A stretch of 64,000 nt of DNA from a virus. Shown piece after piece: positions 3,439 through 64,000 of the stretch (the stretch's first letter is position 1; every line of letters starts with the position of its first letter). The DNA lies in the IMG/VR virus record IMGVR_UViG_3300017788_001394, positions 39,293 through 103,292 of that record, one strand, 5' to 3'. Position numbers and translations under genes: made by a program. The notes under the pieces were generated by a model, which saw only the letters and a program-made list of their open reading frames with translations, had not been told where the DNA came from and did not search any database.

Positions 3439-4080
3439 TCATTTATTTTCATCCGTATTGTTGTCTGGAGGTGTCAATAGTGCGGTAAGATGGTCATCCA
3501 GCCACCATCGATCTGCAGGTTGTATGTATTTTTCATTGGCATCTTGCTTTAAAATTTCTTCAATTTGAGGATCGTCCCATGCTATCGGAAAATCCAGCCA
3601 ATGTGACAAACTTTTCACGTATTGCTGCTTATAAAGATACAATAATTCCTGACTGATATAAAACGGAGGTATTTTTATATTTTTTAAAAGCTGTGGCATG
3701 TTGCCCCAAGTAGGACCGCCACGAAGTCGTGTTTGTTGATGTGTTAATATATTTTTATCCCTACCAATAACCACCAGTTGTGTATCGATACCGACATCCT
3801 CTAATTTATTTATAAAATCAAATACAGGCGGTACTTTAGGCAACCAGTTTTCGATATAAGGATTCGAAATACTTGTTACAGCGTATTGTTTACCTCCCAT
3901 TATGTTAACATCAATTTTATCTATATTATTCCAGTAATAGTTAAACGGTTCTTTATAATGTGGTATAAAATAACCGTCGGGTTTAAGTGCATCTTTCCAC
4001 CCATGCACATCTTTATGTAAACTAAAAATTTTACCAAATAAATGATTCCCAGATCCTTGTGGACCTACTAATACAATCAT
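3439..4080 (-). CDS. P-loop sulfotransferase-like protein
   Basis: The protein is 213 residues from ATG 4080, with AAAGGA upstream; the TTG two codons earlier is less likely. The N-terminus MIVLVGPQGSGNHLFGKIF is a P-loop of the kind found in sulfotransferase-like and related nucleotide-binding proteins. A second strand, TQLVVIGRDKNILTHQQTRLRGG, could carry the 3'-phosphate-binding residues of a PAPS-dependent enzyme. Similar small sulfotransferase-like proteins are common in marine T4-like phages, where acceptors are usually not known. It lies downstream of the symporter gene, from which it is separated by a strong terminator at 4108-4143, so it probably has its own weak transcription or relies on readthrough. 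Confidence 0.55.
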   Translation of the reverse strand: MIVLVGPQGSGNHLFGKIFSLHKDVHGWKDALKPDGYFIPHYKEPFNYYWNNIDKIDVNIMGGKQYAVTSISNPYIENWLPKVPPVFDFINKLEDVGIDTQLVVIGRDKNILTHQQTRLRGGPTWGNMPQLLKNIKIPPFYISQELLYLYKQQYVKSLSHWLDFPIAWDDPQIEEILKQDANEKYIQPADRWWLDDHLTALLTPPDNNTDENK

Positions 4081-4107
4081 CTTCAATTTTCGATTCCTTT
4101 GAAAATT

Positions 4108-4143
4108 AAAATACGGCTACATATCATTATGCAGCCGTATTTT
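4108..4143 (-). terminator. Rho-independent terminator after the symporter gene
   Basis: Arms 4108-4122 and 4129-4143 pair over 15 bases (AAAATACGGCT with AGCCGTATTTT, one A-C mismatch) around a six-base loop. On the minus strand the stem ends in a T run (GTATTTTAATTTTC), immediately after the symporter stop. The symmetric A/T flanks mean it could work in both directions. Confidence 0.8.
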
Positions 4144-4159
4144 TAATATAACAATTACT

Positions 4160-5638
4160 TTACTGTGAATTTGAAATTAATTCAGTGGTTTTGCTTTTGT
4201 TAACAGCCGTAATCAGACTAGCTAGTATACCTGATCCGAAGATTGCTATTAGTGTTCCTGCCATAGTAAATGCAGCACCACCACCAAACTGTTGACCATA
4301 TACAAACATTGGGAAACCTATAATGAATGCAATCACAATGCCCCAAAACATACCATGCTCGCTAATCAACTCAGGCTTCCATAGATGTAACATCATTGGC
4401 CACCATACTGTTGCTCTCATCACACCAAAGAACAAGAAAATTGTCAACAGTGTCATTCCGGGCCAGTTTGCGATTACAAGAGCCATAGTAGCTAGTGCTA
4501 GCATACCACCTCTTGACCATTTGATATTAGCTGCTTCGCTGCTGTCGTTACTAAACTTGTTTTTGATGTCATGTCCTACTAGTGATGCAGCACTATTAAG
4601 TTGACTGTCTAATACTGCAACAAGTCCTGCAAGCAACATGAACAACACAATAAGCACTGTCCAGCTTGGCAAGAAGCTACCGATGGTAATAACTGTAGTC
4701 ATACCTACCAGTTCTTTTGGAATTTCTAAGCCAGCGCCTGCAGCAACAAATCCAAGTGAACCGATCATCAAAGGTACAAATACGAAGATAAATGCGCCGC
4801 CGATGAATGCATGTTTGATGCGATCTTGCTTAATAGCAAACGCTCTCTGGTAGAATCCGTTATCGCCCCATGGTGCACCAAGGTGTCCAAGTGCAGTACT
4901 CATACCTACTGCCATAAACACACCAAGCGCAAAATCGTTAACTAGGCTTGCACCATTGCCGGTTATACCGCCAAATCCAGTTGTTAGTATTGCACTACCA
5001 CCTGCTGCACTCCATGCCCATGGAATAACAACTATTATACCTGCCCACAATACTACGATTTTAAAAATTTCAGTAATAACGGACGCTTTTAATCCGCCAC
5101 GCAGTGCATATAGCAGTGCGATGCCTGCAAGTGCAATTGTTACAAAGTGATAGTTGATGCCAGTGATGGTTTGAACTGCCTGCGAGCCTGCAAGTGCGTT
5201 GATTGCAAATGCACAGCTAGCTAACATCCAAAGTTCTAACAAGAAGATATTTTGCACACGGCTGCTAAACTTTTCTTTAATATAGCCTGGTAACGTAAAG
5301 CCCATCGGCTGACTTGCTCTAATTTTATGAACAAATAATCCAAATATAATTAAACTTAAGAAGTTACCTATAGTAAACCAAAATAGCCCAGCAATGCCAT
5401 TCATGTATGCCATTTGAGCTGAAATAAACAGTGCTGGTGCCCATGCCCATGCTGCTGCAGTACTCATTGCCCCTGCTAATCCGCCGATTTCACGACGTGC
5501 TACTAAGAAGCTTGTTTTGTTGTCCGCATAGCCTTTAACATACCAAGCAGTTAATGCAAAGACTATTAAACCATACAGTCCTACTAATAACCATCCGGTG
5601 GTTTGGTCGAATAGCGGAAATAATGTTGTTAAATCCAT
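4160..5638 (-). CDS. Sodium:solute symporter (SSS family)
   Basis: The protein is 492 residues, the full length of the SSS (SLC5-type) family, with about 13 hydrophobic helices and no disruption. Family landmarks are present: RGGLKASVITEIFK after the fifth or sixth helix, WGDNGFYQRAFA (the DxxxxQR signature), and AVLDSQLNSAASLVGHDI, the helix bearing Na+-site serines. It would couple inward Na+ flux to uptake of an organic solute across the host inner membrane. The substrate cannot be called; family members carry urea, proline, acetate, sugars and others. TAAAGGAG precedes the ATG, and the gene starts two bases after the 5640-6377 gene, so the two form one transcript ending at the 4108 terminator. 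A complete transporter is unusual cargo for a phage. Confidence 0.9.
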   Translation of the reverse strand: MDLTTLFPLFDQTTGWLLVGLYGLIVFALTAWYVKGYADNKTSFLVARREIGGLAGAMSTAAAWAWAPALFISAQMAYMNGIAGLFWFTIGNFLSLIIFGLFVHKIRASQPMGFTLPGYIKEKFSSRVQNIFLLELWMLASCAFAINALAGSQAVQTITGINYHFVTIALAGIALLYALRGGLKASVITEIFKIVVLWAGIIVVIPWAWSAAGGSAILTTGFGGITGNGASLVNDFALGVFMAVGMSTALGHLGAPWGDNGFYQRAFAIKQDRIKHAFIGGAFIFVFVPLMIGSLGFVAAGAGLEIPKELVGMTTVITIGSFLPSWTVLIVLFMLLAGLVAVLDSQLNSAASLVGHDIKNKFSNDSSEAANIKWSRGGMLALATMALVIANWPGMTLLTIFLFFGVMRATVWWPMMLHLWKPELISEHGMFWGIVIAFIIGFPMFVYGQQFGGGAAFTMAGTLIAIFGSGILASLITAVNKSKTTELISNSQ

Positions 5639-20297: not shown

Positions 20298-20844
20298 TAA
20301 TAGTAGACAATACTTAGAGAAGTATAAAAATCTTAAAGACGGTTATTACGAATATCTAATAAATGGCACCACTCGTAACTTATATACTAAATTTGAAGAT
20401 AATAGTGGTTGGATTCAAGTTGTAGTAGTTGACTGGAATAACAGAGATCATGTTAATCGTGATGAAATAGTAAATGTTAAATTAAACGACCATGACATAA
20501 ACTTCTTGCGGTCTGACATATTCGATTATAATATAATGGCTAGTGCCGAGATCTTTAAGGAACCATTCAATGAATGGATACGCTATCCACACAACATGTA
20601 TGTTCACAAATCAATGATTGAATTTAATAGTATTTCGCTAGCATCAGATACTCCTAACAGTAATCTAGTTAGTATTGACTTAAACGCACCACCACTTGCA
20701 ATATACCAAGATACTCAAGACATTGGGTTCGGCGGCGGCAGCAGTGGTATAGGAGATACATTTTTTGCATATAGCAGAGAAGGACGTAACGGATTAGTTC
20801 AAAGTTTTTGCGGACCTGCAAGAGGTGCTGTATACGTTAGATGA
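20287..20844 (+). CDS. Unknown protein coupled to a radical SAM gene
   Basis: A 185-residue protein with no recognised domain. The N-terminal half is rich in aromatic and charged residues (YLEKYKNLKDGYYEYL, WIQVVVVDWNNRDHV). The C-terminal part has IGFGGGSSGIGDTFFAYS, then REGRNGLVQSFCGPARGAVYV, a glycine-rich segment with a lone cysteine. It overlaps the 2OG oxygenase upstream by 11 bases and the radical SAM gene downstream by four (ATGA). This tight coupling makes it a candidate partner or substrate of those enzymes, but it could equally be a structural or enzymatic protein of unknown family. Confidence 0.5.
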   Translation: MGFSNSRQYLEKYKNLKDGYYEYLINGTTRNLYTKFEDNSGWIQVVVVDWNNRDHVNRDEIVNVKLNDHDINFLRSDIFDYNIMASAEIFKEPFNEWIRYPHNMYVHKSMIEFNSISLASDTPNSNLVSIDLNAPPLAIYQDTQDIGFGGGSSGIGDTFFAYSREGRNGLVQSFCGPARGAVYVR

Positions 20845-22010
20845 CTAAAATATTTTGCCCGCATGTTTATAATGCATTGGAGATATCCACAATCGGTAAA
20901 TTTAAGCCTTGCTGTATATCTAGTAAAACATTTAAAAACAACAGTAATGTTGATTTTTTTGCTAGTAAATCAACATTGAATGATGTATATCACAGCGATG
21001 ATAGAAAAGATTTCATTGATAACTTTGACGAATATTTCCCTACAGAATGCAGTCAATGCTATCAAGTTGAAGCAAGTGGCGGAGAAAGTAAACGGCTCAG
21101 GGAAATCAAATACTGGGAATTATATTACAACGGTATTGAACATGTACCTGAATTTACAAAAAGCCAAAGTCTTGAGGTACTGGATTTAAAATTAGGCAAC
21201 ACCTGTAACTTAGCATGTGCTACGTGTGATTCATATAGTAGTAGTAAGTGGAATAGCCTGTTTAAGGAATTTAACAGCGGGTTTGAAACTACTGTTACAC
21301 GCTGGCAAGACGATGATAAGTTCTGGAATGATTTGGTATTAAATCTGTCTAATATTAAGAAAATTGAACTAGCAGGCGGAGAACCGTTTTTAAATAAAAA
21401 ACAAAAGATCATGTTAAAATTTCTAGTAGACAACGACCTAGCTAAGGACATCGACATTACATGGATTACTAACTGCACACAGTACGACGAAGAAGTAATT
21501 AGTCTGTTTAAACACTTTAAACTTGTGCGAGTTATGATTAGTTTAGACAACACAGGTAAACAATTCGAGTATATGCGATATCCTGCTGTATGGGATGATA
21601 GTTATCAAATCTTTTTAAAGTTTTTAGAACTTAAAAATGCAAATTTAATTAACTTAGGAATTAGTCATACTATTAGCTTGCTTAACATATATCATTTGCC
21701 TGATATGTGGGAATTTGCAAGAAAACATAAAGTAATGTTGTTTAACAACTTAGTTATGTGGCCATTCCATTGTAGAAATTTACCAGAGGATTTCAAGCAA
21801 ACAGTTAAAGCCAGACTGGAAGCAGTAAGCGACTCTAGTTACCAGCTTAATCCAGCCAATGGTAAAAACAGTTGGCTAGTAGAATTTATGTTGCAATCCA
21901 ACGAAAATGATAGTATAATGGAAAGAATGAAGGCTCATTTGAGATTTGTTAACAGGACCAGGCAGGACTTGTTTGAAGATGCGTTTCCTGAACTAGCAAG
22001 TATTTTATAA
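20841..22010 (+). CDS. Twitch-domain radical SAM protein
   Basis: The protein has 389 residues. Four cysteines that could bind an auxiliary cluster come first: C6 (IFCPHVY), C24-C25 (FKPCCIS) and a CxxC at C70/C73 (ECSQCYQ). The radical SAM core follows, with CX3CX2C at C122, C126 and C129 (GNTCNLACATCD), then ELAGGEPFL (the GGEP SAM contact) and a VMISLDNTGKQFEYMRYP barrel segment. In this copy the N-terminal PW after the first Cys is replaced by HVY. Related proteins are annotated as twitch-domain radical SAM proteins in marine phages. The substrate is not known. The start codon overlaps the unknown 20287 gene. Confidence 0.88.
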   Translation: MTKIFCPHVYNALEISTIGKFKPCCISSKTFKNNSNVDFFASKSTLNDVYHSDDRKDFIDNFDEYFPTECSQCYQVEASGGESKRLREIKYWELYYNGIEHVPEFTKSQSLEVLDLKLGNTCNLACATCDSYSSSKWNSLFKEFNSGFETTVTRWQDDDKFWNDLVLNLSNIKKIELAGGEPFLNKKQKIMLKFLVDNDLAKDIDITWITNCTQYDEEVISLFKHFKLVRVMISLDNTGKQFEYMRYPAVWDDSYQIFLKFLELKNANLINLGISHTISLLNIYHLPDMWEFARKHKVMLFNNLVMWPFHCRNLPEDFKQTVKARLEAVSDSSYQLNPANGKNSWLVEFMLQSNENDSIMERMKAHLRFVNRTRQDLFEDAFPELASIL

Positions 22011-22012
22011 AC

Positions 22013-22870
22013 ATGAAAGAAAGAAAATATATAAATTGGCGCAGCGGTATTAAACGTAGAATTTTAATAATAGGCGATCAAAATCTATTAGGTGACTACA
22101 GTTTAGAAGGTAAACTCGTAGGTTATAAAAGCTGGGCATGGCATTTAAAAAAACAACTTAACGAAGATCATCATATCTATACTTTACCGTTACCTAATTG
22201 CAGTTTTACACAAGTAAATGCAATATTAGAATATCTCAGAGATAGTGGTCTTCTTGATATCTTTACCCATTGTATTGTCAGTTTACCTGCAGATAACAGT
22301 CAAACATTGTTTACATCAGACGCTGACGGTTATTTTAACGCACTGTCCACTTTTATATTAACCGATCGTTTCTTAAAATATGATTTATATGATGGCAAAG
22401 AACTGTATGATAGATTCTTAGAACCACATATTATGTCAACAAGTGCATCATATTCTAAAAACAATTTAGATAATAGTGTTAGTTATTCGGTTTTTAACAA
22501 ACATTTATTCTCTGTAAATTACGCCATGTTATTAGATATATTGAAGTCGAGTAATGTTGTTCCAATATTATTTGATCTTGAATCAAGGCCAGTTGCACAA
22601 TATCAACAAATTCACACAATAAGAAAACGAGAAGATTTAAATCTATACCCCAACAATTCGTATGCATTTACCGAACCCGACGGTGTATACTGGTCAGCTA
22701 TAGAGATGATAAAGTGCATCGATTTTGATAGAGACTTTAATATCAACAATAACAACACATTCACCGCCGACGACCAATGGGTTCTTGCTAAAACATTGTA
22801 CAAAGTTTTAGCTGATAAACTAATACTTGATTGGATAATAGAGGATAAAAAAAAAAAAGGTAAATCATAA
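22013..22870 (+). CDS. SGNH-like paralog with degenerate motifs
   Basis: A 285-residue protein. It is paralogous to the next gene: both have an IIG/CIG strand near the N-terminus, a YKSWAWHL or NESWAWHL segment, YTLPLP or YTLPSP, and a late PILFD or PIIFD strand. In this copy the GCSH loop of the neighbour is replaced by GDQNLLG and the C-terminal GGHFN is absent, so the probable nucleophile and base of an SGNH-type esterase are missing. It may be a non-catalytic partner. The C-terminus ends in DKKKKGKS, encoded by a run of 12 A (22847-22858). Confidence 0.5.
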   Translation: MKERKYINWRSGIKRRILIIGDQNLLGDYSLEGKLVGYKSWAWHLKKQLNEDHHIYTLPLPNCSFTQVNAILEYLRDSGLLDIFTHCIVSLPADNSQTLFTSDADGYFNALSTFILTDRFLKYDLYDGKELYDRFLEPHIMSTSASYSKNNLDNSVSYSVFNKHLFSVNYAMLLDILKSSNVVPILFDLESRPVAQYQQIHTIRKREDLNLYPNNSYAFTEPDGVYWSAIEMIKCIDFDRDFNINNNNTFTADDQWVLAKTLYKVLADKLILDWIIEDKKKKGKS

Positions 22871-23680
22871 ATGAAAGATAAAGTATTGTGTATAGGATGC
22901 AGCCATTTAGCAGGTGCATACGATAAAGATGATATAGTCGTTAGCAACGAGTCATGGGCTTGGCATTTATGGAAACGTAGAGGAAAGAATGAAATTTTTT
23001 ATACGTTGCCAAGCCCAGGTCAAGGTCTGATGCAGTATGGTGCATTAATAGAAACTCTAAAAAATAAAAACAAACTAAGTCAATTTAAGTATGCCATAAT
23101 ACAGTTAACATCCGAACCTAGAATTAATTGGTATGGCGGGTTACCTCAAAATTATTATTTTTCAATATTGCCACACTTTGTTGATAACAATGAAAATGGG
23201 TTTAACGATGGACAAACAATGTATACTAAGTATGCAAGAAGTATTGTATTATCATCTGACTTTAGAAAAATGTACGAAATACACGAAGGAAAATTTGTTT
23301 CTCCGGATTCTAAAAATGCTTGGTTGGATATTAGCGAACAGCTTTATGAGTCATTTAATAAAAGTGTACTGTCGCAATCATTATTTCCTATCTATATGAA
23401 ATATATTACTGATACGTTAAAAGAACACAATATAACGCCAATCATATTCGATTGGTGGGGTAAAACGGTCGAACAATGGCAATTGATTGATAATCTGAAT
23501 ATACATGATAATATATTGTTTGTCAGGAAATCTATTAAACAGATTCTAATAGATAACAATTTGTGGAACAGAGAAGAGCAAAGTATCGGTGGTCACTTTA
23601 ACAGTATTCAAAATAAAGCTGTTACGAAATTTTTGCATAAAGAAATTATTGAAAAAGGTTTAATGCCTGACTATGAATGA
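22871..23680 (+). CDS. SGNH/GDSL-like hydrolase candidate
   Basis: The protein has 269 residues and starts one base after the previous stop, with AAGG ten bases upstream. KVLCIGCSHLAGAY is a strand followed by GCSH, a GxS-like nucleophile loop; YAIIQLTSEPR could be block III, and GGHFNSIQNKAVTKFL near the C-terminus fits the block V His-containing motif. This is the pattern of SGNH-fold esterases and O-acetylesterases or transferases seen in glycan loci. Homology to the classic families is distant. It forms a tandem duplicate with the preceding gene and overlaps the next radical SAM gene by eight bases. Confidence 0.5.
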   Translation: MKDKVLCIGCSHLAGAYDKDDIVVSNESWAWHLWKRRGKNEIFYTLPSPGQGLMQYGALIETLKNKNKLSQFKYAIIQLTSEPRINWYGGLPQNYYFSILPHFVDNNENGFNDGQTMYTKYARSIVLSSDFRKMYEIHEGKFVSPDSKNAWLDISEQLYESFNKSVLSQSLFPIYMKYITDTLKEHNITPIIFDWWGKTVEQWQLIDNLNIHDNILFVRKSIKQILIDNNLWNREEQSIGGHFNSIQNKAVTKFLHKEIIEKGLMPDYE

Positions 23681-24845
23681 ATCCTTTTGTGTTGCACCAT
23701 GGCTACACATGCATGTAGAACCAACTGGCGATGTTCAACTGTGTTGTGCAAGCAATTGGAAACATGATTTCAACCGTAGCTTAGGAAACTTAAACGATGC
23801 ATCTCCGTTAGAAATATGGAACAATGAACAATATAGATATGTAAGAGCAAACATGATTAAAGGCAATATGTTAAAAAAATATTGCAGTCCGTGTTATCTT
23901 AGAGAAAATGGTGCAGTTAATCAAACCGAACGTCAACGACTTAATAAGGAATTTCCTTTAGGTTATGAACTAGCTAAAGAAACAAATGCAGATGGCAGTT
24001 TAAACAAGTTAGACATACGATATCTCGACATACGTTTTAATAATTTATGTAATTTAAAATGCAGGACATGTGGCCCAGACTGGAGCACAAGTTGGGCAAA
24101 CGAGATGGGTATTGAAAAACCATTGCACTATAATAACTCCTGGAAAAAACTAATACCGTATCTGGGCAATTTAGAAAAAGTATATTTTGCAGGAGGTGAG
24201 CCAATGATGACCGCAGAGCATTATGATTTCTTAGAGTTACTATTAGATACAAACCCTAATGTAGAATTACTATACACTAGTAATTTTACAAGATTGGAAC
24301 TCAAGGGCAGACATGTAATGGACTATTGGCCAAGGTTTAAACTTGTAAATGCAGTAGCTAGTATTGACCATTGCAATGAATACGCAAGTTATGTCAGAAC
24401 TGGAAGTGATTATAACGTAGTCAAGAATAACTTTTTAGAAATAAAAAATCAAAATTTACACAATGTTAGAGCAGGTGTAACTAGTGTACTAAGTTTGTAT
24501 AATATTACTAAAATAGGTAGCTTCATAACACAGTTGTTTGAAGATAAAATTTTAGATAATATGGATCAAATTGTTTTCAACCTATTAGTAAACCCTAATT
24601 ATCAAAACGCTTTGATTATGCCAGAAGAATCGTTGCCTACGGCATTGAATAGTATCGAATTATGTGAACAGTATTTGCATAATTTAGTAATAGATTCATC
24701 TAAGTTAAATAATATTAAAGAATGGTTAACTAATAATCATAATTATGATGAAACTTTATTTAAAAAATTTATCTACTATAATAAAGAATTAGATCGTAAA
24801 CGTAATACAAACTTTGAGTTGTTATATTCGGAGTATAATGTGTGA
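23673..24845 (+). CDS. Twitch-domain radical SAM protein
   Basis: The protein has 390 residues. SFCVAPWLHMHVEPTGDVQLCC (C6, C24, C25) with the CSPC pair C71/C74 forms the N-terminal twitch motif, and FNNLCNLKCRTCG (C126, C130, C133) is the radical SAM site. VYFAGGEPMM supplies the GGEP SAM contact, and AVASIDHCNEYASYVRTGSD is a late barrel segment. The order auxiliary-cluster first, barrel second is reversed relative to SPASM enzymes. The gene overlaps the SGNH-like gene by eight bases and its stop overlaps the next ATG by one base, so three proteins are probably made in fixed ratio. Confidence 0.9.
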   Translation: MNESFCVAPWLHMHVEPTGDVQLCCASNWKHDFNRSLGNLNDASPLEIWNNEQYRYVRANMIKGNMLKKYCSPCYLRENGAVNQTERQRLNKEFPLGYELAKETNADGSLNKLDIRYLDIRFNNLCNLKCRTCGPDWSTSWANEMGIEKPLHYNNSWKKLIPYLGNLEKVYFAGGEPMMTAEHYDFLELLLDTNPNVELLYTSNFTRLELKGRHVMDYWPRFKLVNAVASIDHCNEYASYVRTGSDYNVVKNNFLEIKNQNLHNVRAGVTSVLSLYNITKIGSFITQLFEDKILDNMDQIVFNLLVNPNYQNALIMPEESLPTALNSIELCEQYLHNLVIDSSKLNNIKEWLTNNHNYDETLFKKFIYYNKELDRKRNTNFELLYSEYNV

Positions 24846-26074
24846 TGTCGAATATCCCTGATAATTTTTGTTCGGCTCCGTGGAGTGCAGTGTATGTGGA
24901 TCCGGTCGGTTATGTCGGACCTTGCTGTATATATCGTATGGATGACGAAACAGCATACGGTAATTTAAACAACGATTCAATGAGTAATATAGTTAACAGC
25001 GATAACGCAAGAAAACTAAAATTACAGCTCATTAATAATGAACGACCCGTCGGATGTAACAACTGCTGGGAAAGCGACGATAAAAATTTAACAAGTTTCA
25101 GACATTCTTGGAATGAACGAGACAATAAACAAATTGAAGATTTTTTGAATTATACTAGCAACACAGGGGATTATAATTATTCAAACATAAATTACTGGGA
25201 TATACGACCTAGTAATTTATGTAATCTAGGTTGTATTATGTGTACACCGACACTTAGTTCTGGGGTGTGGCAACTATACTCTGACTTAGGAATGTTAGCA
25301 AAAGATAACGTAAAAAAATTTAAAAAAATGAGCGAAGATGATATCAATTTAACATTGCAATACATCAAAGAAAAAGTATCAGAAAATCATAGTAACGGAA
25401 TAAATGATCATTTTTATTTTGCAGGTGGCGAACCGTTGATTATGCCAGAGCACAAAAAAATTATCGACATGTTAGAGCAGGAAAACTTTTATCATGTCTC
25501 ATTACGATATAATACAAATTTAACGTCAGTTGTGTTTAAAGATATTAATTGGTTAGATAAGTGGAAAAAATTTCAGAACGAAATAATTATCGATGCATCG
25601 ATTGACAGTACAGGAGACACTGCTGGCATACAACGATTCGGAACTGACTGGAATGTGATTAAGAACAATTTAAAATTAATTGCTGCTAGTGATAATATTA
25701 AAATAACATTTAACATTGTAGTATCTATCTTAACTTACCCTGTATTAATAGATACACTAACCGAGTTAGAAGAAATATTCGGTAACGAATATCTGAGATA
25801 CTGTGTAAAATTGACACCGTTACAATACCCTGAATTCTTATGTTTAAACAGTATAACAGATAATCATATTGACTATTCTATAATACATAAAGTAAATGAA
25901 ATGGGCTATAATGTCAGTGAGTTAGGATCTTTGTTAAGAAATAGAGAAAAATTCGTTACACAGCATGATATGCGATCGATCGCCACTGCTCGTAATAAAC
26001 TGTTTAACAGATTATATAAAATAAAAAACATAGATGTAAGAAATATACTACCCTGGTTTGTATTAGATGAATAA
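24845..26074 (+). CDS. Twitch-domain radical SAM protein
   Basis: The protein has 409 residues from ATG 24845 (stop-start overlap TGATG); a GTG one codon earlier is possible. Cysteine layout: C9 in FCSAPW, C27-C28 in PCC, C71/C74 in CNNC, then C126, C130, C133 in SNLCNLGCIMCT. FYFAGGEPLI is the SAM contact and IIDASIDSTGDTAGIQRFG the later barrel segment. It is a paralog of the neighbouring radical SAM genes but only distantly similar over the C-terminal half, so distinct substrates are likely. Followed by a 38-residue gene that overlaps its end. Confidence 0.9.
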   Translation: MSNIPDNFCSAPWSAVYVDPVGYVGPCCIYRMDDETAYGNLNNDSMSNIVNSDNARKLKLQLINNERPVGCNNCWESDDKNLTSFRHSWNERDNKQIEDFLNYTSNTGDYNYSNINYWDIRPSNLCNLGCIMCTPTLSSGVWQLYSDLGMLAKDNVKKFKKMSEDDINLTLQYIKEKVSENHSNGINDHFYFAGGEPLIMPEHKKIIDMLEQENFYHVSLRYNTNLTSVVFKDINWLDKWKKFQNEIIIDASIDSTGDTAGIQRFGTDWNVIKNNLKLIAASDNIKITFNIVVSILTYPVLIDTLTELEEIFGNEYLRYCVKLTPLQYPEFLCLNSITDNHIDYSIIHKVNEMGYNVSELGSLLRNREKFVTQHDMRSIATARNKLFNRLYKIKNIDVRNILPWFVLDE

Positions 26075-26183
26075 CGAAAACGTCAGAACAATGTCTGGGC
26101 ACCTTAATGCCATTGGTTACGAGTTATTTGCACAATATGTATATGAGTTACTTACAGCAAAAATAGCAAAGAAAAATGAGTAA
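26067..26183 (+). CDS. 38-residue peptide between two radical SAM genes
   Basis: ATG 26067 lies in the last codons of the preceding gene and the TAA at 26181-26183 lies just inside the next gene, so both ends overlap by eight bases. The peptide MNNENVRTMSGHLNAIGYEL continues FAQYVYELLTAK and ends AKKNE: one amphipathic helix with no cysteine and a lysine-rich tail. No family is recognised. The two-sided overlap, typical of this operon, argues for translation. It could be a small regulator, a coupling element, or, less likely, a peptide substrate. Confidence 0.5.
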   Translation: MNNENVRTMSGHLNAIGYELFAQYVYELLTAKIAKKNE

Positions 26184-27561
26184 AATTAAACCAATTTGGA
26201 ATCATGACGGTAGCTGTTCAAACGACAGTCCTAATAAAGTTTTCTGTATGGCACCATGGTCACATACATATATTAGTCCGCAAGGAGAACGTCGTCTGTG
26301 CTGTGCTAGTCGTGAAGAACACAGTTTTCAAAAACAATATATTGACGCTAGCAATGACGAAAAATACGGCGCTGTAAAAGAGTCTAAGACCAGTGCAGAT
26401 GAGTTTAATCCGCTAACATTAGAAGAGCATTGGAATAGTCCATATATGCGTGATATACGCAAGAAATTAATGGCAGGCGAGCGTATTCCACAATGTGATG
26501 TTTGTAATGATGATATACTTAGTATAAGCAGTTATCGTAAATGGTTTACAGGTGTGTTGTTTAGAGATAAAATCGAACAAGCGTTTGATAATACAGACGA
26601 CGACGGATATACATCTATGCCTGCTATATCGTTCGATTATCGATATAGCAATTTGTGTAACTTTAAATGTCGTATGTGTGGAGAGCAACTTAGTAGCAGT
26701 TGGGAATCAGAAAAAAAGAAACACGACTTGTGGACTCCAAAAAATCAACCGTTTATGATACCCGAAGTCAAACAAAAAATGACACTGTTTCAGCGTAACG
26801 TAGTTGAGCCAGAATTTAAGAAAGCAATCAGTGATGGCATTGTAGAAGAGATTTATTGGGTCGGAGGCGAGCCTTTAATGTATGATATACATTGGTGGGC
26901 ATTAGAAGAAATGATACAAAACAACAGTGCTAGAAACTGTTACTTAAGATACAATTCCAACTTGTCACGAATCGAATACAAAGGCATGAATTTGTTCGAC
27001 TACTTACCGCAATTTAAAAATTGGTTAATGTGTGCAAGTATCGACGGCACAGGACATATTGTAGAATTTATCCGTAAGGGTATTGTTTGGGAAGAGTGGT
27101 TAGCAAACTTTAAAACAGGATTAGCAGCACCCCACGGAAAAGATAGGATGTTATTTGATTTAACAATAACAGGCCCCGGCATGTTTGCACTTAAAGATTT
27201 GTTTGATTTGTCGAGAGAATTAGATGTAAGAATCGAAACAAAAATAATGTTTGCTTTTCACCCCGACATTGTGTTTAGTCCGTTTGCTTGGCCCAAACAC
27301 ATACTAGATCGTAAAATAGATCAATTATTAAACTATATGGACCCGATAGCAACACATAAACAGCTATCTCTTGTTAACACACTTAAGGAAATGAAAAAAC
27401 GTCCAACCTTTGCAGAACAATGGCCTGACACACATAAGCAGTCATTTATTAACGGTCGAGGCTGGCAACAAAAATTAGACACGATACGCCAAGAGCAGTA
27501 TCGATTAGAAGATATATATAAAGAAGATAACGAATTATACAATTGGTGGACACAAAATTGA
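26176..27561 (+). CDS. Twitch-domain radical SAM protein
   Basis: The protein has 461 residues, about 60 more than its neighbours, with a longer N-terminal lead and a 25-residue insertion before the CxxC pair. Cysteines: C24 in FCMAPW, C42-C43 in LCC, a CDVC pair near 106/109, and the radical SAM motif C161, C165, C168 in SNLCNFKCRMCG. IYWVGGEPLM is the SAM contact and CASIDGTGHIVEFIRKG the later barrel segment. A longer version of the family, with SPxGE before the CC pair. Substrate unknown. The last codons overlap the start of a methyltransferase gene. Confidence 0.9.
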   Translation: MSKIKPIWNHDGSCSNDSPNKVFCMAPWSHTYISPQGERRLCCASREEHSFQKQYIDASNDEKYGAVKESKTSADEFNPLTLEEHWNSPYMRDIRKKLMAGERIPQCDVCNDDILSISSYRKWFTGVLFRDKIEQAFDNTDDDGYTSMPAISFDYRYSNLCNFKCRMCGEQLSSSWESEKKKHDLWTPKNQPFMIPEVKQKMTLFQRNVVEPEFKKAISDGIVEEIYWVGGEPLMYDIHWWALEEMIQNNSARNCYLRYNSNLSRIEYKGMNLFDYLPQFKNWLMCASIDGTGHIVEFIRKGIVWEEWLANFKTGLAAPHGKDRMLFDLTITGPGMFALKDLFDLSRELDVRIETKIMFAFHPDIVFSPFAWPKHILDRKIDQLLNYMDPIATHKQLSLVNTLKEMKKRPTFAEQWPDTHKQSFINGRGWQQKLDTIRQEQYRLEDIYKEDNELYNWWTQN

Positions 27562-28823
27562 CAGCAAATAACTACAAGTGGCACTATTTAAATAGTGCAG
27601 AAGCTAATCCAATGTACGAACAAATGGCTAGTTTTATTAAGGAGAATGACTGTAAAACTGTTTTAGATATCGGATGCGGGTTTAGTAGAATCAATGAGTT
27701 TTTAACCAATGATTATTCGATAAATGGTCTAGATTCTGATATAGATTGCATAAATTATTGTTTGGAAAATCATTCAGGAAAGTATGTAATTGGCGATGTC
27801 ACTGCCATAGAAAAATACACCGAGCTCGGCACACATTACGATGCTATTGTGTTAAGTGGTATACTATATTATTTTGGTAAAGGCGATATGCCAACTGTCG
27901 AAGACTACGTTGACAGGTTGATTAAACTGTATAGCCCCAGAATAGTTATAGTATGCGAACCAAGGCCTAGTCTTGTTTATATAAGTCCAAACTTTACTGA
28001 GTTACTAGACAGATATGCATACGTTGCAAAACAATTCGATATGAAAATTCGAATGGGAAACAGAATTGTTTATTGTTTATACACAGACAGAAATCGTCCT
28101 GAGCGCAAAATAAAAGCAGAATTCAATGAACACTCGGAACTATATAATCATATTAAACAAAGTGACTTTGATACTAATCGATTGAAATATAATGTTTATC
28201 TCACCAATACAGAAAACATATCAAACGACAGAGACGGCGAATTATTTCCGCAAAATGTAAATAATTATCATTATATAAGTGTTGCAGCTGGATTTAAAAG
28301 TTTGTTTAAAGCAGTAATAGATTGGGAAGCCCACAAAGAGTTTAAATTTATATATGTTGATGTTGTTCCTACTGCATTAGATTACCGAATGTTCTTTGAT
28401 TTTAAACTTAAGCAAAACAGTAAAATATCATTCAATGAAATATATAACTTGTATGTCAGTGAGATAAACCCAAATATTATTCCCATATATGGAACGAATA
28501 ACGTTGACATAGATGAAACAGTAAAAATGCAATTAAAAGAACTCGACATTGACTTTCAACACTGGCAAGACTTTATTGCTGCATATAGTCAAATTGAAAA
28601 AACATATATCAAATTGGATGCAGTTAATAATATAAAACTTCTTAAAAATCTTATAAATTCGTGTACAGATGATAATCTAAAATGGTTTTGGTATAGTAAT
28701 ATGTTTGATTGGCACCAATTTAGATTTAAAGAACAAACATATTATCGATGGGTTAAATACTTAGATAATAATATAAAAGGCTTAAAATTGAATGGTCACA
28801 CCCCGCCGTTTACTACTTCATGA
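27558..28823 (+). CDS. Methyltransferase with large C-terminal domain of unknown function
   Basis: About 421 residues; a TTG at 27558 overlapping the previous stop (TTGA) with GGTGG upstream is the favoured start, TTG 27543 and GTG 27546 are alternatives, and no ATG is near. TVLDIGCGFSRINEFL is methyltransferase motif I, NGLDSDIDCINYCL motif II and YDAIVLSGILYYF motif IV, all within the first 130 residues. The C-terminal 250 residues contain FKFIYVDVVPTALDYRMFF and alternating aromatic segments that I cannot place. A two-domain protein may methylate the product of the flanking radical SAM enzymes. A non-ATG start in a tightly packed operon may lower its expression. Confidence 0.65.
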   Translation: MTANNYKWHYLNSAEANPMYEQMASFIKENDCKTVLDIGCGFSRINEFLTNDYSINGLDSDIDCINYCLENHSGKYVIGDVTAIEKYTELGTHYDAIVLSGILYYFGKGDMPTVEDYVDRLIKLYSPRIVIVCEPRPSLVYISPNFTELLDRYAYVAKQFDMKIRMGNRIVYCLYTDRNRPERKIKAEFNEHSELYNHIKQSDFDTNRLKYNVYLTNTENISNDRDGELFPQNVNNYHYISVAAGFKSLFKAVIDWEAHKEFKFIYVDVVPTALDYRMFFDFKLKQNSKISFNEIYNLYVSEINPNIIPIYGTNNVDIDETVKMQLKELDIDFQHWQDFIAAYSQIEKTYIKLDAVNNIKLLKNLINSCTDDNLKWFWYSNMFDWHQFRFKEQTYYRWVKYLDNNIKGLKLNGHTPPFTTS

Positions 28824-29613
28824 TATTATATTCAGATATTGCCAGTTCGTAAGTCAAGCAGTAATAGGTGTGTATGTCCATGATATTATTAATATAGGTC
28901 TTGATAGGCTAGCAACAAACATATCAAACGACATTTTTTCTGACCCGGCATGGGAACATATAGAACAGTCGAGCGAGAATTTAATATTTAAAAGAAATTC
29001 TTTCAACCTGTGCATTATAACTACATATCGAAAATACAAAGTTTTCATCGGCACAAACGCAGTGATAAGCAATGTTAACTTCTTATACGCAGCTGACATA
29101 TTTAAAGATAATTTAGCAATAAAAACAACAAATGTGTTTTACAACAACTTCTCGTATAGGGTTGAGTGTAGTGATTTTATACCGGGCATTACAATATCTC
29201 AATTCTTAGAAGACGACCAAGAAGGCGAATCATTGGAAAAATTTAGGGATGCAGATGTATTATTAACTACTGTTGCAAATTATATAGGAAAGAATTTTTA
29301 TATAGACAGTGACGGATTTGTGTTATACCCGTCAGATTTACAAAGTACTAACTTAATACTGACCAATCTAGATACTGATCCAGAAATTATATTAATAGAT
29401 TTTGATCACATTATTAAACAACCGTATGAACGGATGTATACAGATGTAGCTAACAGATTTTTTACTCATATATCTAAATACAATTTTGACAGTAAACGTT
29501 TTCCGGTCAATTCGATACAACCATTCTGGAAACACCATTTATTAACACATACTATAGACGAAATTAAAACTGATTTTATAAAGAGAATTGACAATGCAGT
29601 TAGAAACAAATAA
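28792..29613 (+). CDS. Kinase-like protein (choline/aminoglycoside kinase fold, divergent)
   Basis: A 273-residue protein from ATG 28792, which overlaps the previous gene by 32 bases. YPSDLQSTNLILTNLD followed by EIILIDFDHII reads as a diverged catalytic loop (D..xxN) and metal-binding IDFD motif, and RVECSDFIPGITISQFL as the hinge. These recall the kinase-like protein at 14400 (HGDFTFDN, MEYIPGISIRNYL). The histidine of HGD is absent. It might be an atypical small-molecule kinase or an inactive relative. Overlaps the next radical SAM gene by 20 bases. Confidence 0.5.
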   Translation: MVTPRRLLLHDIIFRYCQFVSQAVIGVYVHDIINIGLDRLATNISNDIFSDPAWEHIEQSSENLIFKRNSFNLCIITTYRKYKVFIGTNAVISNVNFLYAADIFKDNLAIKTTNVFYNNFSYRVECSDFIPGITISQFLEDDQEGESLEKFRDADVLLTTVANYIGKNFYIDSDGFVLYPSDLQSTNLILTNLDTDPEIILIDFDHIIKQPYERMYTDVANRFFTHISKYNFDSKRFPVNSIQPFWKHHLLTHTIDEIKTDFIKRIDNAVRNK

Positions 29614-30811
29614 CCCATATTTTTGTATACTACCATGGATACATATGCACATATGGCCAAATGGCACAACTTATCCCTGCTGTCTATCAACTAACGATTA
29701 CAAACTAGGAAATACAAATGATAGTAGCTTCTTAGAAATATGGAACAGCGATAAAATGAGATCATTGAGAACAAATGTTCTCAACGGTAAGCCAACATCT
29801 GGTTGTGCAAGGTGTTACGAGCATGAAAAAAATGGCGCAAGAAGTATGCGAATAAATCTTAACCGAGACTATGAGCATTATTTTGATCGAACCAAGTTAA
29901 CTAAAGAAAATGGTAGTTTAGACGAAATATTCATGGCTTATATGGATATTCGGTTTAGTAATATTTGTAACTTTAAATGCAGAACATGTGGTCCAGAGTT
30001 AAGTAGCTTCTGGGTCGACGATGCTGTTAAGATGAATCGCTATTCGTCGACGCAACCTAAAATACTTAAAATCAAAAATACATTAGAAGAACTGTGGCAA
30101 GATATGGAGCAGTGGATAGACACTGTGGAAAAGATTTACTTTGCAGGCGGCGAGCCATTAATAATGGACGAACATTATAAAATATTAGAATATCTTATTA
30201 AGATAGGAAAAACTAATATTAACATATTTTACAATACTAATCTAAGTAAATTAAAATACAAAAATAAAGATATAATCGAATTATGGAAACAGTTTAGTAA
30301 AATCAGTGTCGGTGCAAGCATAGACGGTATGAATGGTCGTGCTGAATACATAAGAAGCGGAACAAGCTGGTTCGATATTGAAAAAAATAGAGAGCTGTTA
30401 CTCACTGAATTGCCTGAAGTAGAGTTTCACATAACTTCTACTATAAGCGCATATAATGCAGAACACTGCCCCGACTTTTTCAATAATTGGATTAATAAAG
30501 GTTTTATTAGTGCAACTGATATAGATTGCAATGTGCTGCTGTATCCGGAATTTCAACGAGCACAAGTGTTACCAGAGTACAAAAGAAAAATGATACAAGA
30601 AAAATATCTGCAATTTATATCAGATCATAAATTAAAAGAAATGGTCGCTGCCCAACATCGTTATGTTAGTTTCAAAGCAGTTGTGGATTCGTTAAATGTA
30701 GACAAGTCAAACTTACTTCCTCAATTTGTTGAATACAGTAAACGGCTAGACAAAATAAGAAATGAACATTTACCGGATATCTTTCCGGAATTAAGGTTCA
30801 TGTATGAGTAA
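29594..30811 (+). CDS. Twitch-domain radical SAM protein
   Basis: The protein has 405 residues from ATG 29594; an upstream in-frame TTG is ignored. C11 in FCILPW, C29-C30 in YPCC, the CARC pair, and then FSNICNFKCRTCG complete the twitch plus radical SAM layout. IYFAGGEPLI supplies the GGEP contact and VGASIDGMNGRAEYIRSG the following barrel segment. Most similar in motif spelling to the gene at 23673 (CNxKCRTCGP), which suggests that these two arose by duplication. Its end overlaps the next radical SAM gene by eight bases. Confidence 0.9.
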   Translation: MQLETNNPYFCILPWIHMHIWPNGTTYPCCLSTNDYKLGNTNDSSFLEIWNSDKMRSLRTNVLNGKPTSGCARCYEHEKNGARSMRINLNRDYEHYFDRTKLTKENGSLDEIFMAYMDIRFSNICNFKCRTCGPELSSFWVDDAVKMNRYSSTQPKILKIKNTLEELWQDMEQWIDTVEKIYFAGGEPLIMDEHYKILEYLIKIGKTNINIFYNTNLSKLKYKNKDIIELWKQFSKISVGASIDGMNGRAEYIRSGTSWFDIEKNRELLLTELPEVEFHITSTISAYNAEHCPDFFNNWINKGFISATDIDCNVLLYPEFQRAQVLPEYKRKMIQEKYLQFISDHKLKEMVAAQHRYVSFKAVVDSLNVDKSNLLPQFVEYSKRLDKIRNEHLPDIFPELRFMYE

Positions 30812-32006
30812 CACTTTTTGCCCGTTATTATTTCAACACTTAGCAACGCATCCCCACGGCGGTGTTACTCATTGCTGTATCGCCGATCACCGAAATGCAT
30901 TAAGCAGTGCAAGAGATGTGACCGATACCGGACACAACTACTATAACTTAAATCGTAATACAGTTAGTGATACATTTAATAGTGAAAGTTTCCGAACAGC
31001 TCGATTGCAAGTGTTAGAAGGTAAAAAGCCACAAGCATGTTTAAGATGCTATAGCGAAGAAGCTAAAGGCATAAGAAGCAAGAGGCTAGAAGAAATCGGA
31101 AACTATCCTGATTATACACTAGATATAGCTAAATCTGTTACAGATAATAATGGTTACATACAAAATATACAATTTGATTTTGTTGAATTGCGTCTGGGTA
31201 ACGTTTGCAATGTTGCGTGTAGAACATGCAATCCTGCAAGTAGCAGTAAGTGGCGCAATGATTATGACAAACTACAAAGTTCTTTGCCGTTTTCTATTAC
31301 AAACTACGATACGATCGAGGGATTCAGGTGGCCTGAACGTGAAGCATTCTGGGAAGATTTGTTACAACATTGTAATAACGTAAAGACATTTTACATTAAC
31401 GGCGGCGAGCCTACACTAATTAAACAACATTTTAAGTTTTTAGAACGTCTGGCTAGTATGGGCAGAACTGATGTTAAACTTTGGTATAACATTAATATGA
31501 CTAACATGAACGAAGAAATAATAGAAGTTTGGAAAAAGTTTGATAAGGTTAAAATTAGTTGCAGCATAGATGATTTAGGTTCGAGAAACGAATACATACG
31601 TTATCCCACTAAGTGGGACGATGTAATGCGTAATTTTTTGAGGTTAAAAGAAGAAAATTTTGAATTAGATGTTACACAAACTGTATCATTTATGAATTAT
31701 AGCAACTTGACCGAATTTTATAACTTTTTTCACAATGAACACAAGGTTTGGGTTCATCATAACTTTGTATATGATCCTGATATTTTAAGTCCTGGTGTAT
31801 TACCTAAGGAGATCAGAGATAAAATACATGCACGTATGCACAACATTTTCGAGCCATGGCAAGTAAATATGTTTGTTAACATGTATAACAATGCAGATAA
31901 CAACGAAAAGTGGAGTCGTGCGGTAGCATATACTAAATCATTAGACAGAATACGCAATCAATCGATCGTTAACGCTTTGCCTGAATTCGAACATATAATA
32001 AAGTAA
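30804..32006 (+). CDS. Twitch-domain radical SAM protein, last gene of the plus-strand operon
   Basis: The protein has 400 residues. C6 (TFCPLLF), C24-C25 (THCC), the CLRC pair and LGNVCNVACRTCN complete the cysteine set; the first Cys is followed by PLLF rather than PW. FYINGGEPTL is the SAM contact and ISCSIDDLGSRNEYIRYP the late barrel segment. By motif spelling it groups with the 20841 gene (LGNTCNLACATCD, later EYMRYP), a second subclass within the operon. It is convergent with the minus-strand radical SAM gene at 32023, with only 16 bases between and no clear terminator hairpin. Confidence 0.9.
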   Translation: MSNTFCPLLFQHLATHPHGGVTHCCIADHRNALSSARDVTDTGHNYYNLNRNTVSDTFNSESFRTARLQVLEGKKPQACLRCYSEEAKGIRSKRLEEIGNYPDYTLDIAKSVTDNNGYIQNIQFDFVELRLGNVCNVACRTCNPASSSKWRNDYDKLQSSLPFSITNYDTIEGFRWPEREAFWEDLLQHCNNVKTFYINGGEPTLIKQHFKFLERLASMGRTDVKLWYNINMTNMNEEIIEVWKKFDKVKISCSIDDLGSRNEYIRYPTKWDDVMRNFLRLKEENFELDVTQTVSFMNYSNLTEFYNFFHNEHKVWVHHNFVYDPDILSPGVLPKEIRDKIHARMHNIFEPWQVNMFVNMYNNADNNEKWSRAVAYTKSLDRIRNQSIVNALPEFEHIIK

Positions 32007-32022
32007 AAAGTGCATATGCCCC

Positions 32023-33504
32023 TTAAACTCCTAGCGTATCTGTTTCTGTATTCCACCCTCCGGTGCCTGCTACAATGTCGTCGTTTAAATAATGTTCTGT
32101 CGTTGCAGGGTCTATTGCGGATGTAATACTAGGGACAACTATATCCGGGTTGTAAGATATGCTATCGTACCATTCTACAAATGTAGGAAATGCAGCACGG
32201 AAATCTTTGTTACGTCTGATGTCATACTGCTCATAGAAATAACGGAAGTCATTATATAACTTAGGTGTTTCTGCTGTATTGCGATGTGGCGTTTTAACAA
32301 CGTCTAAATAATCGATCAGTCGTTGAACATGTGCAACTTCACCCTGACTTAAAAACTCTTGTTTTGTTGGTAACCAATCTTCAAGTTTTTTCTTAAAAAT
32401 TGCTTTCAACTCTACCGGCAATATCGCAGCACTTTGGAAACTAGGAAAGCGCAATATGTTGAGTGTCATAGTAGGAGCACGAAATCCGTATTCTTTTCTA
32501 AGCTCTAACATGTCGTCCATAAATTCAGTTATAGACTCTAAACACAAACTATTAATAGTCATCATACAATGTAATTCTTTAACGTTAGATTCCTCTAACA
32601 ACCTTACAATGTTACTACGCCAGATTTTGTAATCAAACCCGTCACGGGTATATTCGTTTTGTGTCGCTGCACATTCAGCACTGGTATATATTTCAAAATT
32701 TTGTATGTCAAAACTTGCGTCTATTAGTTTTTGAAACATGCGCTCATTTTCGGGAACAAGATTGCTATTGATAGCAAAACGCATAGTGCTTGTTGGGTTG
32801 TCACGAAACCAATCAAACAGTTTCCAAACAGACTTATGCATTAATGGTTCGCCGCCTGTGATTCGGATTTCTTCTAGTTTATCACTAAGACCATTTTCCC
32901 ACCACTTCCAAAACGCAATAATATATGGATTGTCTTCTTCATGCAATGTTTTACGTGCAGCCCAGGGCGCAGTATCGATAAAGTGCCCACGTCCATCACT
33001 TTGGATATTCATGTAAGGACCTTTATCTTTAATGTCTTTAACCCATGTGCTGCTGAATGCAGGATTGCAATAACTACATGCAAAGTTACATGCACGGTCA
33101 AACGCAATTTCGAGTGTTCTTAATGTGACATCTTGATCCCATGGCGTAGTAACACACGCTTTTACATCTTCGTCACTGAATATTTGCGTTTTATAAACAC
33201 GGTCGCTAATGTTGTTTCGTCCAATATCTTCCACTTTCCAACAATATTCGCATTCTTGTGGACGCTCACCTTCCTGCATCATTTTACGCATAAGTTTTTT
33301 GTGTTTAGTGTTATGAATAGCGGTAGGATTAATCATTAATTCATCGGTTGGGATCCAATGTCCTGGTGGATGGTGACAGCTAGTAGTTTGACCATGACCC
33401 AGCCATATTGTAGCATTGTACCACTTAGCTGCACAAAAACTTTTACTTATCGGATCAATTATGCGTTCTTTATATTCGTGATAACTTTCATTATTTTTTT
33501 TCAT
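32023..33504 (-). CDS. Twitch-like radical SAM protein, CHHPP subclass
   Basis: The protein has 493 residues. The N-terminal motif is altered: C24 in FCAAKW, then C43 in TTSCHHPPGHWIP where the others have CC, followed by a CEYC pair and the radical SAM motif in FDRACNFACSYCN. IRITGGEPLM is the SAM contact. A conserved block of prolines and histidines (CHHPPGHW, NPTAIHNTKHKK) separates this subclass. It is coupled by four bases to the paralog at 33501, and both are transcribed with glycosyltransferase-like genes from about 39.1 kb. Such pairs occur in marine T4-like phages; the reaction is unknown. Confidence 0.9.
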   Translation of the reverse strand: MKKNNESYHEYKERIIDPISKSFCAAKWYNATIWLGHGQTTSCHHPPGHWIPTDELMINPTAIHNTKHKKLMRKMMQEGERPQECEYCWKVEDIGRNNISDRVYKTQIFSDEDVKACVTTPWDQDVTLRTLEIAFDRACNFACSYCNPAFSSTWVKDIKDKGPYMNIQSDGRGHFIDTAPWAARKTLHEEDNPYIIAFWKWWENGLSDKLEEIRITGGEPLMHKSVWKLFDWFRDNPTSTMRFAINSNLVPENERMFQKLIDASFDIQNFEIYTSAECAATQNEYTRDGFDYKIWRSNIVRLLEESNVKELHCMMTINSLCLESITEFMDDMLELRKEYGFRAPTMTLNILRFPSFQSAAILPVELKAIFKKKLEDWLPTKQEFLSQGEVAHVQRLIDYLDVVKTPHRNTAETPKLYNDFRYFYEQYDIRRNKDFRAAFPTFVEWYDSISYNPDIVVPSITSAIDPATTEHYLNDDIVAGTGGWNTETDTLGV

Positions 33505-35072
33505 GTTTTGTTACTTTCGTTAAAATGTTTATAGCAATCGTTCCACCAGTTTCCTAGTTCGGGAAAAACTTCAGGGAACTTAGTGTTTCTTCTTTGATCA
33601 ATTTGATTAAAATATAACCAGAACTGTTTTTTTCTTCTAGCTATCTCTGCAACAGAAAGCTCTGTTTTTCCGTTTTTGATCCAAGCAATGTCTCTTTTAA
33701 GTTTAGCGATTTCGTAGTGCTTGAACCCATGATACGTTCTGCCATAGTGTTCATTTTCTACATTATTTTCCATGAAAACTAAACAATCTTCTAACATAGA
33801 AATAAGTTCAGGATAAAACGCTGCATTTTGTGCGCTCATCCATTCTGGCTGACGAAGATATGGAATATCGAACCAAACTCGCTGGCGACGTTTTCTAACA
33901 AAAGGAGGATGCACAAAACCGTTACGGTCGGGAGGTTGTATAACATGATCTGTTTGATTTTCATAACCAAATTCTATACGCAAATCTAAAATCATTTGCA
34001 AAAATTCTTTAAGACGAGGAATACTTAGTAAGTTAAATGTGTTAATAAAACTTATCTCTGATCCATGTGTTTCTTTCATGAATGTTTTAATATTTTTCAT
34101 CATACGTTCGTAATTGAGACCTGTTCTGATATATTCCGCTTGTTCACCTGTACTATCTAAGCTAATGAACAAACTAAAATGTTTACATGCAGGGGCCACA
34201 TACCAATTATTACCGCTATCTGGGTTAAACTTTTCTTTATCTTCCCAAATTCTAACTTCCTCGATAGCTTTTAGTTTTTTAATAAATTTATCGAATAAAC
34301 GTTGATCAGGTGGACACATATTACTAGTTATACTTAAGTCTAATGTAGAATTTGGATTTTTGTTAACATAATCTAATACTCTAAATGTATTTTTATCCAT
34401 TAGAGGTTCGCCGCCGGTCATACGAAAAACTTTCAAATCCTTATACAAATCAGGCCACCAGTCCCAAAAGGCCTCTACATAAGGATTATCTTTATTACTA
34501 GAATTGATAGGCATTAACCCCGCAGCAGATAAACTTTTAATATCGTTATGTTTAAAGTTGTCGCCGAGATCATACGGGCCATAATCTTCGATTTCTTTTT
34601 GCCAAGATGTGCTTAAATGAGGACTGCAATATGTGCATTTAAAATTACATGCTTGATTGAAATTAACTTCAACATATCTTGGATTAATGTTGTTGTCCCA
34701 CCCGCCGTCTATTACTTCGTCCCAACCATCTTGTGCCCATACTTCGCTGCTACGATAATGCCTATCGCTTAAATGGGGTCCATCGGGAGCGTCTTCGATA
34801 TTCCAACAATATTGGCATCCAGCTGGACGTTTACCTTGCCACATATCTCTGCGTTGTTTTACTTTTTCCATTGTATTGTGCAACGCTTTAGGATTTACTT
34901 CTAATTCGTCTAAAGGAATTTTGTGTGTTGGCGGATGGTAGCAGCTTTGCGTTAATCCTGATGTTAAATGCATACTGACTTGCAACCATTTAGCCATACA
35001 CATAGTAGAACTAATCTGATTTAACTTGTCTTTAGTTTTTTTTGCTTCTTCGAAGTAATCAAGAGCTGCCAT
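33501..35072 (-). CDS. Twitch-like radical SAM protein, CYHPP subclass
   Basis: The protein has 523 residues and is a close paralog of the next gene downstream. C25 in MCMAKW, TQSCYHPPTHKIP, the CQYC pair, then FNQACNFKCTYCS; FRMTGGEPLM is the SAM contact and LFISLDSTGEQAEYIRTG the late barrel segment. The shared NPxAxHN block after the HPP motif and the long C-terminal region (QIDQRRNTKFPEVFPEL in this copy) mark the subclass. It begins one base after, and on the same strand as, the glycosyltransferase-like 35072 gene, and probably works in the same pathway. Confidence 0.9.
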   Translation of the reverse strand: MAALDYFEEAKKTKDKLNQISSTMCMAKWLQVSMHLTSGLTQSCYHPPTHKIPLDELEVNPKALHNTMEKVKQRRDMWQGKRPAGCQYCWNIEDAPDGPHLSDRHYRSSEVWAQDGWDEVIDGGWDNNINPRYVEVNFNQACNFKCTYCSPHLSTSWQKEIEDYGPYDLGDNFKHNDIKSLSAAGLMPINSSNKDNPYVEAFWDWWPDLYKDLKVFRMTGGEPLMDKNTFRVLDYVNKNPNSTLDLSITSNMCPPDQRLFDKFIKKLKAIEEVRIWEDKEKFNPDSGNNWYVAPACKHFSLFISLDSTGEQAEYIRTGLNYERMMKNIKTFMKETHGSEISFINTFNLLSIPRLKEFLQMILDLRIEFGYENQTDHVIQPPDRNGFVHPPFVRKRRQRVWFDIPYLRQPEWMSAQNAAFYPELISMLEDCLVFMENNVENEHYGRTYHGFKHYEIAKLKRDIAWIKNGKTELSVAEIARRKKQFWLYFNQIDQRRNTKFPEVFPELGNWWNDCYKHFNESNKT

Positions 35073-63812: not shown

Positions 63813-63877
63813 GTTAACTTTTGTTTAACATCACGGTTGGACAAAATAATAAAAATTATCAATTTTTGGAGAACGAC

Positions 63878-64000
63878 ATGAAAAACTTTATTGCTGCTCT
63901 ATTACTTACTACCACTGTTGCCTACGCAGAAGGCGATGCTGCTCAAGGCGAAAAACAATATAAAAAATGTGCTGTTTGCCATACCGTCGAAGAAGGTGGA
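63878..64000 (+). CDS. c-type cytochrome precursor, C-terminus beyond window
   Basis: The gene starts at ATG 63878 with TTGGAGAA eight to twelve bases upstream; 41 codons are visible. MKNFIAALLLTTTVAYA is a signal peptide with AYA cleavage, and EGDAAQGEKQYKKCAVCHTV shows the CxxCH haem-attachment motif (C32, C35, H36) in the spacing of class I cytochrome c of the c552/c2 kind common in alphaproteobacteria. Such proteins carry electrons in the periplasm, for example between bc1 complex and oxidase. An unusual cargo for a phage. Because only the first third is seen and the gene is the last in the window, a join to host DNA or a chimeric contig cannot be ruled out. Confidence 0.85.
   Translation, partial: MKNFIAALLLTTTVAYAEGDAAQGEKQYKKCAVCHTVEEGG

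Follow-up and report, generated by a model that had tools for sequence, protein, structure and literature searches.

A class I cytochrome c gene carried by T4-like phages as a proposed auxiliary gene for host respiration

The gene cut by the right end of the virus contig studied here encodes a class I cytochrome c, of the c2/c550/mitochondrial type, and its carriage by phages can be taken as practically certain. The analysed stretch, referred to as the window, comprises 64,000 nucleotides (positions 39,293 to 103,292 of IMGVR_UViG_3300017788_001394). The reading that we favour, with moderate confidence, is that a large T4-like phage carries this secreted cytochrome as an auxiliary metabolic gene that sustains periplasmic respiratory electron flow. 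Gene identity, carriage in several phage lineages, conserved ligands, selection, alphaproteobacterial affinity and adjacency to DoxX or alternative oxidase (AOX) genes were observed directly; the function has been inferred. If the proposal holds, viruses tune respiration in heterotrophic bacteria too, beyond the photosynthetic carriers that they bring to cyanobacteria, and whether viral proteins support the respiration of infected cells becomes testable.

The cytochrome c gene

Only 41 codons of the gene lie in the window because the 103,292-bp contig ends at position 64000 (Table 1). The open reading frame begins MKNFIAALLLTTTVAYAEGDAAQGEKQYKKCAVCHTVEEGG and runs off the window end, and the signal peptide MKNFIAALLLTTTVAYA is followed by EGDAAQGEKQYKKCAVCH, containing the CxxCH motif. 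The sequence-only reading had described a signal peptide, a CxxCH haem site and a good ribosome-binding site just after a gp55-like gene, and all of them were confirmed, the gap being of 65 nt. Taken alone, the 41 residues match Pfam Cytochrom_C weakly and below the cut-off (E=0.024). Full-length relatives, however, match PF00034 with E=4e-11 to 1e-10 (43-44.5 bits versus a cut-off of 21.3) and solved cytochromes c among the PDB sequences with E=1.5e-23, and the weak match of the window is therefore not due to chance. A structure model of a family member (pLDDT 80.7) retrieved cytochrome c folds from the PDB with E values down to 2.1e-07. The cytochrome does not belong to the NCBIfam equivalog for cytochrome c-550 CycA (NF043008), scoring 55.3 bits versus a cut-off of 240.

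Table 1. Features at the right end of the window
Feature	Position	Strand	Evidence
gp55-type late sigma factor gene, 291 aa	62937..63812	+	PHROG 12791, sigma factor for late transcription, E=1.6e-86; 99% identical in L002
Intergenic junction gp55/cytochrome c	63813..63877	+	Resembles the region upstream of cytochrome c in L082, starting right after the gp55 stop
Ribosome-binding site GGAG, 6 nt 5' of ATG	63868..63871	+	Sequence; GGAGAACGACATG context also in L082
Class I cytochrome c gene, first 41 codons	63878..64000	+	ATG at 63878; contig end cuts the gene
Signal peptide MKNFIAALLLTTTVAYA	63878..63928	+	Read from the sequence; similar hydrophobic leaders in family members
Overlap of 121 bases, exact, with the start of IMGVR_UViG_3300017788_000317 (L083/L085)	63880..64000		Sequence identity
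Haem attachment site CAVCH	63968..63982	+	No variation in either Cys or in the His across 18 aligned sequences

The full-length protein has 122 amino acids in contig L082, and 121 codons are present in contig L083. The axial methionine is Met98, within KGTKM and about 60 residues past CxxCH. The window sequence stops before this residue, which is known from the relatives only and is invariant in them, L083 included. The haem cysteines, the histidine and the methionine ligand do not vary among 18 aligned sequences (16 viral and 2 cellular). Hence the gene encodes a class I cytochrome c, with covalent haem and redox activity being inferred. The protein shares with bacterial cytochrome c2/c550 and mitochondrial cytochrome c (PF00034) the signal peptide, the N-terminal CxxCH, the KGTKM methionine ligand, the C-terminal helix and the fold. 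The phage-carried proteins differ from these in forming a viral clade of their own, in a shorter loop after the methionine ligand (KMxFKE-KK instead of KMxFPGLKK) and in a viral motif, WTxELMDxWL.

Codons less AT-rich than those of the neighbouring genes had also been reported, and this did not hold: GC at third positions is 0.24 in the 123 nt, versus 0.285 +/- 0.037 in the window genes, and a total GC as high as that of the 123 nt (0.41) occurs in 13% of in-frame segments of this length drawn at random from those genes. The argument for recent acquisition from composition was consequently rejected, since third positions are as AT-rich as those of the neighbouring genes.

A family of phage cytochromes c

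The cytochrome family is represented at 35 viral loci, the longest contig measuring 299,910 bp, and in L082, L088, L118, L132 and others phage genes stand on both sides of it. For the window cytochrome this is so only via the overlap with L083. The phage-carried class I cytochrome c proposed from the window alone is thus supported by the phage genes of L083 and by these 35 loci. Family neighbours include gp43 DNA polymerase, gp44, gp32, Hsp20, class II ribonucleotide reductase, PhoH and endolysin; in L082/L084 the cytochrome is accompanied by MazG and gp44, with PhoH nearby. A short way upstream of the cytochrome, L082 encodes a Bax1-I (YccA-like) membrane protein (3625-4296, minus strand, E=9.7e-53). 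The phage cytochromes are under purifying selection, with dN/dS of 0.03-0.20 in the seven pairs whose dS is below 1.2. Carriage is sporadic, since 43 viral contigs (DoxX carriers and gp55 relatives) yielded no PF00034 match when scanned over their entire length.

Genes of electron transport adjoin the cytochrome in several relatives. A DoxX gene (PF07681, above the cut-off where tested) overlaps it by 3 to 45 nt in six distinct phage lineages (L086, L088/L133, L091-L093, L112-L115, L120/L121 and L122-L125), lying 3' of the cytochrome in L120/L121 and 5' in the other five. AOX (PF01786) is encoded directly upstream in L105 (5334-5918, E=3e-77) and L132 (5379-5999, E=6e-81). This adjacency in relatives points to electron transport. 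The DoxX family itself occurs in at least 404 viral stretches, and among 80 of these most show no haem-binding neighbour. Neither DoxX nor AOX neighbours the cytochrome in the window's own subgroup (window, L082 and L083).

No match to this cytochrome c or to phage DoxX was obtained among GenBank phages, PHROGs has no family for the cytochrome, DoxX or AOX, and the viral predicted structures of BFVD gave no significant match to cytochrome c. Phage C48C1 (OQ984149, Kyanoviridae) encodes a 59.5%-identical AOX homologue, annotated as hypothetical (26318-26821), near gp55, gp47, gp46, Hsp20 and gp43; no cytochrome c of this family was found in it.

Proposed function and its main rival

By inference from what is established for class I cytochromes c, the phage protein would cross the membrane through the host Sec system, would be loaded with haem by the host cytochrome c maturation (Ccm) system and, as a soluble periplasmic cytochrome, would shuttle electrons from the host bc1 complex to a host terminal oxidase. 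The last of these roles seems fairly probable to us. The benefit would be that respiration and ATP supply continue once host gene expression has been shut off or host transcripts have been lost. Export, haem loading, redox partners, expression and benefit to the infection are all inferences, with no expression, haem or redox data.

The main rival to the respiration role is redox relief, in which the cytochrome would supply a peroxidase with electrons or help to drain a quinol pool that is over-reduced, limiting oxidative stress in the infected cell. AOX oxidises quinol without proton pumping, a property that favours protection, as does the direct adjacency of DoxX or AOX to the cytochrome in several phage lineages. 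However, AOX needs no cytochrome c, the subgroup of the window has neither neighbour, and nothing in the sequence separates a peroxidase-linked from an oxidase-linked cytochrome c. The protective role is regarded as unlikely. Possible but doubtful is a broader proposal, namely that marine T4-like phages possess a swappable module, made of cytochrome c plus phage DoxX or AOX, acting as a virus-run electron-transport branch that determines how energy and redox stress are balanced in infected alphaproteobacteria.

As for the respiration role, the data suggest that the family of T4-like phages with this gene, which often stands next to further genes of electron transport, manages the respiration of infected cells. 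Cyanophages carry electron-carrier auxiliary genes such as plastocyanin petE, ferredoxin petF and the oxidase PTOX. These likewise are T4-like phages with single components of host electron transport, and the analogy with plastocyanin drawn by the sequence-only reading is apt, although the phage cytochrome c is respiratory and of alphaproteobacterial affinity, not photosynthetic. The same reading had envisaged a new kind of respiratory auxiliary gene, an idea to which the phage gene context lends support, its role being inferred. Reads of cbb3 oxidase have been reported from viral fractions of the Indian Ocean (Williamson 2012, PMC3474794), a report that likewise claims respiratory chain genes in marine viruses but concerns an oxidase subunit at read level, whereas here cytochrome c stands on phage contigs that have been assembled. 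Viral fractions are known to suffer from contamination (PMC3877843). Nitrogen-cycle phages have been noted to lack electron carriers (PMC8115048), and phage haem synthesis has been proposed as a support of respiration (PMC11480375). No open-access paper on phage cytochrome c or phage DoxX was found; as only the open literature is covered, this is weak evidence.

The junction with gp55 and the far side of the gene

The neighbouring gene proved to be of the gp55 type both by its family match and by the gp55-gp47-gp46 order of its relatives. Phage genes beyond position 64000 had been named as the sign of phage carriage, and they are present, as MazG, gp47 and gp46 on L083, provided that both contigs adjoin. 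Their join rests on the 121-base overlap and not on reads; from its length, such an overlap is inferred to be what is expected between adjoining contigs of a k-mer assembly graph. The gene order on L083 is the rest of cytochrome c, a MazG-like gene, a small open reading frame, a truncated gp44, gp47, gp46 and further phage genes. A 92%-identical cytochrome c gene is present in a third phage contig. Neither gp44 nor a second cytochrome was found in the window's own 103-kb contig.

Comparison with relatives delimits the foreign piece. The gp55 side matches L002 at 88% (DNA), window positions 63861-64000 match L084 at 95%, L083 from 1 to 1025 (cytochrome to the truncated gp44) matches L084 at 94% without a break, and L083 from gp47 onward matches L002 at 96%. 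Judging from these alignments, some 1.1 kb of DNA originating in an L084-like phage seems to have entered the gap between gp55 and gp47; these two genes remained intact, and gp44 is truncated. The position of the cassette in this phage looks recent and the gene family in phages old. The end of the cytochrome gene (AGGTGTTCAATGATGTTTAA) is repeated at the junction of truncated gp44 and gp47 (L083, 9823-9847, minus strand), which hints that the cytochrome once stood immediately before gp47.

The same pattern might be produced by an assembly or amplification chimera, a phage contig being joined at 63.8 kb to unrelated cytochrome-bearing phage DNA, in which case gp55 and the cytochrome would not adjoin in this phage. 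In the close relatives gp47 follows gp55 directly (gp55 protein identity 99% in L002, 93% in L003 and 80% in L004), the exact gp55/cytochrome junction was not found in any other viral contig, the cytochrome is terminal in both contigs, a position at which assemblies frequently break, and the truncation of gp44 falls at the far junction. Nevertheless, according to two contigs the cassette sits between gp55 and gp47, both breakpoints falling in the short gap between these genes or in the first gp47 codons, and flanking genes intact on both sides would be unexpected for random joining. Moreover, the identity of the cassette to L084 falls short of 100%, at 94%. Since both breakpoints spare gp55 and gp47, a random chimera is disfavoured, in the absence of read data, and we consider it quite improbable; even if it were true, the cytochrome would remain phage-borne in L082 and others.

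That host chromosome begins at about 63.8 kb, as a prophage edge or contaminating bacterial DNA, is hardly tenable, for although the nearest non-viral homologues are alphaproteobacterial, the DNA beyond the window consists of phage genes (a continuation on L083 that rejects this reading if L083 and the window adjoin), the best cellular homologue scores 131 bits versus 180-245 bits for the viral members, and the viral sequences form their own clade.

Origin and host

In the tree, 18 viral sequences constitute one clade (support 99/95) nested among alphaproteobacterial cytochromes c, a topology consistent with a single ancient acquisition and later spread among phages. Host-derived origin and maintenance by selection were thus both borne out, by the tree and by dN/dS. 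Among 385 genomes belonging to the same class as an alphaproteobacterial MAG, 314 have a homologue of the cytochrome. The host has not been identified; solely from the affinity of the cytochrome, an alphaproteobacterium seems most plausible.

The 1180-aa baseplate-wedge protein of the window has as its relatives in cultured phages the jumbo phages of Agrobacterium, Salicola and Pseudomonas (37-40% identity), so that the contig probably represents only part of a far larger genome. Genes for a sodium:solute symporter (SSF; window 4160-5638, minus strand) and for a glycine-betaine-type ABC binding protein (OpuAC; L098, 15542-16537) were also observed on the phage contig. Dense clusters of radical SAM/SPASM-like open reading frames occupy both strands of this contig, at window positions 20841-35072 and in L099 (G000:C1:20001-39400); they were judged by their CxxC-rich starts, and one of them, at window positions 29588-30811, was confirmed by Pfam.
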